A DNA stretch of 6,686 nt from positions 1 through 6,686 of the forward strand of contig WJIO01000140.1 of assembly GCA_014730235.1 (NCBI GenBank). The letters are read 5' to 3'. Under the pieces are notes generated by a model. It was not told where the DNA came from. It did no database searches and was given only the letters and a program-made list of their open reading frames with translations. This DNA is from Candidatus Poribacteria bacterium. GTDB taxonomy: Bacteria > Poribacteria > DTPJ01 > WJIO01. This document shows, in pieces, positions 766 through 4,906 of the stretch (its first letter is position 1; the number at the start of each line of letters is the position of its first letter). The position numbers and the translations under genes were made by a program.

Positions 766-806
766 ATAATTGTTTTTATAAGTCAGTAGCATTTTACTTT
801 TAGTAT

Positions 807-932
807 TGTAATCGTTAAAAAATGGATATAATTTAGTTGTCATTCCTGCTTTCGCAGGAATGACAAATTTTGTAATTTACCATTATTATAAAGGTATTTT
901 CTAAACATATTTTTCATTTTTTAACGATTACA
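807..932. mobile_element. MITE-like non-coding element with perfect terminal inverted repeats
   Basis: The 126-bp element starts with TGTAATCGTTAAAAAATG (807-824) and ends with its exact reverse complement (915-932), an 18-bp perfect inverted repeat. GTAT lies immediately outside both ends (803-806 and 933-936), as expected of a 4-bp target-site duplication. Inside is a second palindrome (837-866). There is no room for a transposase, so it would be a non-autonomous element moved in trans; the mobilising family is not identifiable here. It sits between a promoter-like sequence and the permease start, 44 bp upstream of the ATG. An alternative is a structured regulatory leader, but the flanking direct repeats favour insertion. 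Confidence 0.7.
815..866. repeat. Palindromic repeat, copy 1 (13-bp stem)
   Basis: The arms TTGTCATTCCTGC (837-849) and GCAGGAATGACAA (854-866) are exact reverse complements around a TTTC loop. With its left flank (TTAAAAAATGGATATAA, 815-831) it matches a second copy at 4802-4854 at nearly every position; differences are limited to the loop and the 5-6 bases before the stem. The stem resembles the GTCATTCC...GGAATGAC palindromes dispersed between genes in many bacterial genomes. It lies inside the 807-932 element. As RNA it would form a stable hairpin on either strand, but no clean T-run follows it, so it is a poor intrinsic terminator. Confidence 0.85.
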
Positions 933-976
933 GTATTCAGTTTATTCTATCAAATAACAGCCAAAACCAACAACTC

Positions 977-2795: not shown

Positions 2796-4643
2796 TTGAG
2801 GCAGAGCCTCAAATATTTGACCCTCAGTATACGAAATTTCTTAAAGGAAAACGGTTCACTTATATTAGCCTGTGTGCTAATGGGCGCGCTGCATTTGCTT
2901 TATCAGGGCTATAACTTCGGTAGTGGTAACCACTCCATTCAAATTCCTATCCTTAAAAGCTATTTTCACCCTGATCTATATCCCGGCGATAGGATGATCG
3001 CCACCAGATCCCACTTCATCACCTTTTATTTCATGTTCCTGGGTCTGCTGGATCGAATTTTTGGACATCTAGAATTCATATTTTTCACATCACAGCTTTT
3101 AACAGAAATACTCATCTTCTTTACTGCATATCATTTTGCCTATGCCCTATTTAAAGATAAAAAGATCGCCATAATGCCGATGATATTATTTTTTACAAAT
3201 AAACCCGTATTAGGTGGAGCCATAATCCACTGGAATTATCACACCCACACTTACGCAGTGCTTCCCCTTATACTGGTTGCTTTTGCCCTCTATGTTTATG
3301 GATATAGAAAAGCAGCCTATGGATTACTGGGCTTTGCCGCTAATATTAATATCCAGTCGGTATCATTTGTCCTGCCTATGTTCATGCTGTTTTCCCTGAT
3401 AAAGGCCTATGAATCAGGAAAAGAAAACAACTGGCTGAGTGCGGGGTTGAATCTGGCGAAAGAATATGGTTTTTTTATTGTATTCAGCCTGCCATGTCTT
3501 ATATGGGCTTTTTCAAAGGCCGGTGGGAATCTTACAGAGGACTGGTTCAAGCAGTTGTGGGAAAGATCCAGACACCACAGCTATCCCTTTACATGGGAAA
3601 AGAAGCACTTTACCGACAATTTGCTTTTCTTTACCCTTGGTATATTAACATGGTCTATAGCTTTAAAAAATTCAGAAAGAAAAAACGTGCATGGGATGAT
3701 TGGGTGGTTTAGTTTTGTGGTTTTGCTTTTATGCAGTGCCGGGGTTGTATTTGCTGAGTATATTCCATTGAAGATCGTATTAAGAGCCCAGTTGTTCCGA
3801 AGTACTAAATTCCTTTCTATCTTTGTTCTTTTGTATGTAAGTTATGCCGCTAAATACCTTTGGGATAAAGGTAATTTCCACAGAATTCTGGCTATCGCTA
3901 CATTTATACCTGTGTTGATAACGGATTACTTGATCTTTATACCCCTGATAATACTGATATACCAGATAACCGAAAGAAAAGACATGTATTGGTGGACTAC
4001 TCCGGTAGTTGCTTCCGTTTTGATTCTGAGGGTATATGTACCTCATACCGGATTTCCATCGGGATTTGACTCAAGCAAGATGATTGGCTTTATCAGACCA
4101 TTTTTTGAAGATAAAATCCGAGTCCAGTTGTCTGTTGCGCTTTTGTTGTGGTTATCTGTAATCAGCATAACATCAAACAGATGGCTAAAGTCCGGAGTTG
4201 CTCTTATAATACTGCTGTTTTTCTCCATCAAGATTTATCCGGTCATGTATCACAGTAAAGTAACAACAGTGGAAAATCGTGGAACATGGGTTGATGTGCA
4301 GTTATGGGCAAAGGAAAATACCCCAAAGTCAGCAATGTTCCTTACACCACCTTATAATCATTATTTCAGGGTATATTCGGAGCGAAGCACAGTGGGAGAG
4401 TGGAAAGACGGCACTCAGCAGTATTTTGATACGGAATATTCCTATGAATGGTGGTCAAGAATGATGGATATTGGTAAAAATGAAGCAGAATATGATAACC
4501 TGAAACCGGAAAGGTTAAAAGAACTCAGCGAAAAATATAGTGTTTCATATATAGTTTTCCGGGCGAATAAACCTTTACCTTTTGATGAAGTATATAAAAA
4601 TAAAGATTATATCGTTTATAAAATATACAAGCATAAAATTTAA
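2796..4643 (+). CDS. Polytopic membrane protein, GT-C-like with a DUF6798-type C-terminal region
   Basis: The 615-residue protein has a first hydrophobic helix at ~21-37, then a polar loop with SIQIPILKSYFHPDLYPGD (47-65), then roughly ten more membrane segments spread to ~480, and a soluble C-terminal domain (~490-615). That layout (first extracytoplasmic loop with acidic residues, many helices, C-terminal extracytoplasmic domain) is typical of GT-C lipid-linked sugar transferases. The C-terminal pattern WAKENTPKSAMFLTPP...FRVYSERSTV...WK (504-537) resembles what I recall of DUF6798 proteins, which often carry W..ENTP...FL.PP...FR..S.R. The actual reaction is unknown; transfer of a sugar from a polyprenyl-phosphate donor is only an inference from fold. 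It starts with TTG behind a good ribosome binding site, 97 bp after the permease, so co-transcription is possible but a functional link is not evident. Confidence 0.7.
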   Translation: MRQSLKYLTLSIRNFLKENGSLILACVLMGALHLLYQGYNFGSGNHSIQIPILKSYFHPDLYPGDRMIATRSHFITFYFMFLGLLDRIFGHLEFIFFTSQLLTEILIFFTAYHFAYALFKDKKIAIMPMILFFTNKPVLGGAIIHWNYHTHTYAVLPLILVAFALYVYGYRKAAYGLLGFAANINIQSVSFVLPMFMLFSLIKAYESGKENNWLSAGLNLAKEYGFFIVFSLPCLIWAFSKAGGNLTEDWFKQLWERSRHHSYPFTWEKKHFTDNLLFFTLGILTWSIALKNSERKNVHGMIGWFSFVVLLLCSAGVVFAEYIPLKIVLRAQLFRSTKFLSIFVLLYVSYAAKYLWDKGNFHRILAIATFIPVLITDYLIFIPLIILIYQITERKDMYWWTTPVVASVLILRVYVPHTGFPSGFDSSKMIGFIRPFFEDKIRVQLSVALLLWLSVISITSNRWLKSGVALIILLFFSIKIYPVMYHSKVTTVENRGTWVDVQLWAKENTPKSAMFLTPPYNHYFRVYSERSTVGEWKDGTQQYFDTEYSYEWWSRMMDIGKNEAEYDNLKPERLKELSEKYSVSYIVFRANKPLPFDEVYKNKDYIVYKIYKHKI

Positions 4644-4657
4644 GTCCGCATAACGTT

Positions 4658-4801
4658 TTAAGCGGCTTTGTATCTCTCCCAGAAGTCATTCCACTTGCAG
4701 TTGAGCACCATAATACGCATGTTCTCAACAGCATCAGCACTTTCTCTGCTCCAGTTCATTCTACGGGTTTCATCCTGTGACAAATGACTATATACCCGGC
4801 T
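4658..4801 (-). pseudogene. Transposase C-terminal remnant
   Basis: On the minus strand an open frame of 47 codons ends at a TAA (4658-4660). It includes RRMNWSRESADAVENMRIM and then LNCKWNDFWERYKAA at the C-terminus. The pattern R(W/M)xWSxxxADAVxxxRxxxLNxxWxxFW is like the C-terminal tail of several transposase families (ISKra4-like, also UPF0236/ISLre2-like); I cannot decide between them. There is no start codon with a ribosome binding site and no catalytic region, so it is a truncated relic. Its upstream side stops exactly where the palindromic repeat at 4802 begins. On the other side it may extend to about 4644, next to the stop codon of the membrane-protein gene. Confidence 0.55.
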
Positions 4802-4854
4802 TTAAAAAATGGATATAACTTATATTGTCATTCCTGCGTTCGCAGGAATGACAA
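4802..4854. repeat. Palindromic repeat, copy 2 (13-bp stem)
   Basis: The arms TTGTCATTCCTGC (4825-4837) and GCAGGAATGACAA (4842-4854) flank a GTTC loop. The left flank TTAAAAAATGGATATAA (4802-4818) is identical to that of copy 1; the join before the stem is one base longer (CTTATA against TTTAG). No matching right-hand inverted repeat and no flanking direct repeat are seen, so this is a shorter or decayed copy. It lies between two converging genes and could fold in both transcripts, but no T-run directly follows the stem on either strand. Confidence 0.85.
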
Positions 4855-4906
4855 GCTGAGGGAATTTTCAATTATAATCACACTAAATCCAGAAGAATCA
4901 GATTTC

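Follow-up and report, generated by a model that had tools for sequence, protein, structure and literature searches.

A 124-bp miniature transposable element with a REP palindrome as proposed cargo, a likely transposase source and hybrid elements in a Candidatus Poribacteria genome

The source of the transposase is missing from the descriptions of many bacterial MITEs, and MITEs frequently survive longer than their parent element. BOX elements of Streptococcus pneumoniae are modular miniature repeats made up of exchangeable parts. Bacterial MITEs such as Correia/NEMIS, Chunjie, MITEAba12 and QMITEs are short and non-coding, possess TIRs and duplications, and occur in many intergenic copies (PMC10969869). 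REPs of the CGTC-1 type, which include dRS3 of Neisseria and RPE-6 of Rickettsia, consist of a CGTC or TGTC tag, an 8-bp stem starting with AT, a 4-nt loop and a CCA tail (PMC3733652). CGTC REPs have been reported without a dedicated transposase, and the origin proposed for them is either the loss of such a transposase or movement by a wide range of transposases (PMC3733652). IS1272, a member of the IS1182 family, inserts by replacing inverted repeats and leaves no duplication (PMC5678879).

The window analysed here is a stretch of 6,686 nucleotides from a Candidatus Poribacteria bacterium (contig WJIO01000140.1 of assembly GCA_014730235.1). At 808-931 it holds a 124-bp element, MITE-1, the ends of which (TIR1, GTAATCGTTAAAAAATG) are complementary over 17/17 bp, with the left copy at 808-824 on the + strand and its perfect complement at 915-931 on the - strand. 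Arm A (GATATAATTTAGT, 825-837, + strand) connects the left TIR1 to a palindromic REP core (TGTCATTCCTGC-TTTC-GCAGGAATGACA, 838-865), and arm B (AATTTTGTAATTTACCATTATTATAAAGGT...TTTTT, 866-914, + strand) connects the core to the right TIR1; both arms recur in AB-type copies. The element is flanked by exactly matching AGTATT target-site duplications (802-807 and 932-937, + strand). An earlier note, made from the window alone, had described an 18-bp inverted repeat with GTAT duplicated on both outer sides. The repeat itself is there, but comparison with other copies shortens it to 17 bp, because the apparent 18th base is formed by T807 and A932, the last and first bases of the left and right duplications, respectively. 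Likewise, GTAT is present on both sides but represents the inside of the 6-bp AGTATT rather than the duplication as such. The nested 13-bp palindrome described in the same note was found at 837-849 / 854-866, and the block is indeed non-coding, with no ORF of at least 60 aa within it. MITE-1 is a non-autonomous DNA transposon, ordinary in kind as a MITE.

The host assembly is fragmented (5.53 Mb in 451 contigs), and the relatives used for comparison are not close strains; the survey combined genome searches with an unselected sample of 763 kb (contigs C1-C81), representing 14% of the genome, in which end-paired elements, cores and hybrids were counted. The further full-length copies that the earlier note had suggested looking for turned out to be many: searching the host genome with 780-960 recovered about 30 near-full-length copies of 85-98% identity together with partial ones. 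TIR1 had 295 genome matches with at most 2 mismatches vs 2 for a reversed-pattern control, and the 16 end-paired elements of the 763-kb sample give about 116 per genome by extrapolation; overall, end-paired copies number roughly 100. The main size classes of MITE-1 are 123-125 bp, 91 bp, 134 bp and, with a long core, 171-183 bp, the 91-bp class being the 124-bp form minus 33 bp between two ATT triplets, with the palindrome gone. Copies are typically 91-93% identical (median 91% among 26 full-length copies), while the closest relative of the window copy shows 97.6% identity. The recent movement proposed from the perfect ends and intact direct repeats gains moderate support from these identities; they would suggest that MITE-1 activity is not ancient, and do not necessarily imply current activity. 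Outside the host, no MITE-1 copy was found in 57 relatives, and the TIR1 pair was absent from the 84,980 species genomes of genome_contigs in one exact-pattern scan from which the host's record was possibly excluded. A TIR-pair scan of viral_contigs, with the host's own record again possibly excluded, returned zero. No Rfam family matched the element at gathering score, the weak matches of 16-24 bits being far under the cut-offs. The block is therefore neither a lone copy in its host nor conserved among the 57 relatives, the two findings that the earlier note had named as speaking against a mobile element.

Exact flanking repeats were present in 38/47 TIR1-ended elements, with lengths of 5 bp (24), 6 bp (13) and 7 bp (1), compared with a mean of 1.4 and a maximum of 7 when the flanks were re-paired randomly. 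The MITE-1 duplication is not constant in length, most examples being of 5 or 6 bp. For three elements, the host genome also contains a paralogous empty site that has the target only once: L020 sits inside an arm of MITE-2, a second family described below, L014 sits in another multicopy sequence, and L030 sits inside a TIR1 element of other type, the uninterrupted version existing elsewhere in the genome in each case. These sites bear out the expectation that loci free of the element carry a single target. At L026, a MITE-2 is inserted in the TIR of a MITE-1 with an 8-bp duplication (TCATTTTT). As for location, 42/45 elements with enough flank lie outside ORFs of at least 120 aa, whereas 82% of random positions fall inside ORFs. 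On insertion, MITE-1 would duplicate 5-6 bp of its target, which is A+T-rich DNA lying mostly between genes.

A transposase gene flanked by the ends of the element, which had been proposed as a target for searching, was found on contig C228. The IS at C228:12327-13637 (1311 bp) possesses two ends identical to TIR1 over 17/17 bp, shares 22 bp at one end with the arm-B end of MITE-1, and carries an intact 402-aa ORF. The encoded protein contains a DDE_Tnp_1 domain (31.4 bits vs the Pfam cut-off of 23), and its D, D and E positions align with those of an Alicyclobacillus transposase. Its best NCBIfam model is IS1182, with 46 bits (E 3e-12) vs a curated cut-off of 270. Given that this score is below the cut-off and that IS1272 replaces inverted repeats without duplication, we do not claim membership of the IS1182 family and regard the transposase, judging from its sequence, as distantly IS1182/IS5-type. 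The sole relative found is on a plasmid record of Alicyclobacillus (28% identity). Searches of genome_contigs, viral_contigs and 83 further genomes from the phylum gave none, and no solved structure matches the transposase by sequence. In this IS, a terminator-like hairpin (GCCACTTTTCTTAGCAAAGTGGC, L076:1828-1900) overlaps the transposase gene at its end. The identity of the ends points to the C228 IS as the likely source of transposase for MITE-1, the DDE transposase of which would recognise the 17-bp TIR1 in trans.

The 28-bp inner palindrome of MITE-1 is, by its sequence features, a CGTC/TGTC-type REP. In the window the core reads TGTC ATTCCTGC TTTC GCAGGAAT, corresponding to the tag, the 8-bp AT-initial stem and the 4-nt loop of a CGTC-1 REP. 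Cores take the form of either one collapsed 28-bp hairpin, as in the window, or a 72-78-bp inverted REP dimer with the tags outermost (TGTCATTCCTGCGAAAGCAGGAATCCAG...CTGGATTCCTGCTTTCGCAGGAATGACA), and this long core fits the CGTC-1 REP definition (PMC3733652). The CCA tail is found in the long (dimer) cores and not in the short core, including the window copy. The host contains 378 copies of the short core, TGTCATTCCTGC-NNNN-GCAGGAATGACA, and 83 other genomes of the phylum contain none, allowing up to 2 mismatches. The commonest loops of this short core are GAAA and TTTC, and we infer that it represents the long core after deletion between the GCAGGAAT repeats (loop GAAA) or the ATTCCTGC repeats (loop TTTC). 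When cores were counted, 23 loose matches without arms were dropped, mostly as chance matches in other sequence; one exception (L126:3685) is a genuine core, the flank of which is damaged and resembles arm D. A text search of the literature for the REP sequence gave unrelated matches only. The REP would spread as MITE cargo and not by means of a dedicated transposase; the naturally occurring 91-bp class, which has no core, likewise suggests a cargo role.

The core recurs in MITE-2, which has different ends (TIR2, GGYTCTTCCGGGTTNAGTGTGG, 731 matches in all) and different arms (C and D). Among 43 MITE-2 elements, exact duplications of 8 bp were present in 20 and of 7 bp in 4. Because both the ends and the duplication lengths differ, MITE-1 and MITE-2 would be moved by separate transposases, and the inverted ends and 8-bp duplication of MITE-2 suggest a transposase of the DDE type. 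Neither the places listed nor the 763-kb sample yielded an autonomous partner IS for MITE-2. An alternative MITE-2 core, CTTCAAGCTTTTT(G/C)AAAAAGCTTGAAG, occurs within the same TGTCATTCCTG outer parts (L142:2987-3035 and other copies), and 113-bp MITE-2 composites combine both core types, indicating that cores are exchanged too.

In hybrid elements, the core is flanked by one TIR1 arm and one TIR2 arm. With arms labelled by approximate matching to reference arms that we picked, and with counts made in 763 kb of a fragmented assembly in which some junctions could be assembly errors, target duplications were found in 0/13 mixed-end vs 33/54 same-end elements (Fisher p = 6e-5). This lack of target duplication argues that hybrids result from the joining of two elements at the core and not from a single insertion. 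Since the core is present in several hundred copies, the arms of different elements would become joined when cores recombine with one another or when replication slips from one core to another. One such hybrid lies in the window itself: an arm A remnant with TIR1 cut off at TTTAAAAAATGG (4801-4825, + strand) is followed by a REP core with the loop GTTC (4826-4853) and by MITE-2 arm C, the TIR2 of which (CACACTAAATCCAGAAGAATC) is degenerate (4854-4899, + strand). This hybrid stops 8 bp short of the end of a hybrid-cluster protein (prismane) gene on the - strand. A further composite, L082:2896-3099, has TIR1 at both ends and a GTAAT duplication with MITE-2 arm D within, and probably arose in two steps, insertion of a MITE-2 into one end of a MITE-1 and then deletion between both cores.

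Canonical REPs of CGTC type are also present in the relatives G001 and G003. In G003, which belongs to another family of the phylum, 4/15 inspected REP loci (L189, L193, L205 and L207, at about 1425-1610, with a REP monomer) lie in a different repeated element, the ends of which (CTACAGGCGATGAT / ATCATCGCCTATAG) are inverted; this may be a third family of MITEs with a CGTC REP inside. At four G001 loci (L200, L202, L208 and L212, at about 1390-1525, at contig ends), the REP lies inside a repeated element with the left arm CTGAGAATTCTGAAAACCAGTTAAATCC.... We treat both repeated elements as leads on REP carriage. The pattern may extend to the phylum as a whole, since REPs of two other genera lie inside repeated elements too (with inverted ends in one genus). 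That CGTC REPs spread as cargo of DDE-type MITEs, with the palindrome serving as an exchange joint that mixes the ends of unrelated families, perhaps phylum-wide, is a proposal that we find plausible but that falls somewhat short of being probable.

Taken together, we consider it highly probable that the locus is explained by a 124-bp MITE-1 moved most likely by the C228 transposase, with the REP as cargo and with hybrids formed by core joining. Parts of this explanation have competitors. Parents of MITEs are often lost before the MITEs themselves, and a different transposase, now lost or unassembled, could move MITE-1, in which case the C228 IS would share its ends by descent only. The C228 IS is a single copy in the 451-contig assembly, has no target duplication, and is unlike MITE-1 beyond the 17-22-bp ends, so that the link between transposase and MITE is one of ends; in addition, IS1272 makes no duplication (PMC5678879), as against 5-6 bp for MITE-1. 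Against this, identity covers 17/17 bp at both ends and extends to 22 bp on one side, the ORF is intact, and TIR1 was absent from the other IS1182-like transposase loci of the host that were inspected. We thus regard another transposase as unlikely. Even less likely is an independently mobile REP hairpin that entered MITE-1 and MITE-2 separately and left mixed-end elements as chance neighbours. It would fit the differing flanks around REPs in G003 and the difference in dimer spacers between MITE-1 and MITE-2. Against it, 94/94 strict cores of the 763-kb sample adjoin a MITE arm, 80 of them being flanked by arms left and right and 14 on a single side, and zero stand without one; moreover, the arms of mixed elements, one per family, directly abut the core, and dimer spacers of MITE-2 type occur within TIR1-ended or mixed elements (L142, L148).

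The position of the MITE-1 copy raises the alternative that the block is not mobile at all but serves the downstream ABC permease gene as a conserved regulatory leader or terminator. The copy lies between co-directional genes, with the upstream stop at 728 and the ABC permease start at 977, the transcribed 802-937 is predicted to fold very strongly (-51.9 kcal/mol, z = -12.6), and the core was scored as terminator-like on the + strand. This alternative is nevertheless extremely improbable, given roughly 100 copies near unrelated genes, with duplications and empty sites, and the absence of the block from 57 relatives; the dispersed copies with their duplications refute the idea that the block is primarily a leader or terminator. 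A strong sigma-70-like promoter match lies at 736-765 (TTGACA, 18 nt, TATATT, 11/12), although the regional count of such matches is not above chance. With this match upstream of the element, the ABC permease mRNA may have the MITE-1 copy in its leader. A transcript of the element would fold into a strong hairpin between the two co-directional genes on either side, and may have a side effect on termination and an influence on these neighbouring genes. Overall, the evidence mostly favours a selfish element that is tolerated in intergenic DNA. Beside the ABC permease and prismane genes, 2796-4643 encodes a 615-aa membrane protein with DUF6798 as its sole Pfam match.

As is presumed for the bacterial MITEs described above (PMC10969869), MITE-1 would be mobilised in trans by a related IS. 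It differs from them in that TIR1 was absent from one exact-pattern scan of public genomes, that its REP core is common to a second family, and that hybrids are formed through the core. One genome here combines a MITE, a candidate transposase source, target duplications and empty sites. The IS1182 family, e.g. IS1272, resembles the candidate transposase in its DDE type, its TIRs of 16-17 bp and its rank as best NCBIfam match; MITE-1 insertions duplicate 5-6 bp, unlike those of IS1272, a difference that is not decisive because the family is heterogeneous. The cores share with CGTC-1 REPs (PMC3733652) the tag, stem and loop and, in the long form, the CCA tail and inverted dimers, but in the host sample they always stand beside MITE arms, and the common short form is symmetrical and collapsed and has no CCA tail. 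That every sampled core stands beside an arm of one of two MITE families, both probably of the DDE type, supports the proposal that a wide range of transposases moves these REPs (PMC3733652) and makes it testable. What is less ordinary here is a REP cargo common to two MITE families, plus hybrids, which illustrate how small elements exchange parts via a shared palindrome. Host MITEs and BOX elements are both modular and are likened by build only, not by sequence; unlike in BOX, the exchange point here is a REP palindrome, and the arms come from two transposition systems.
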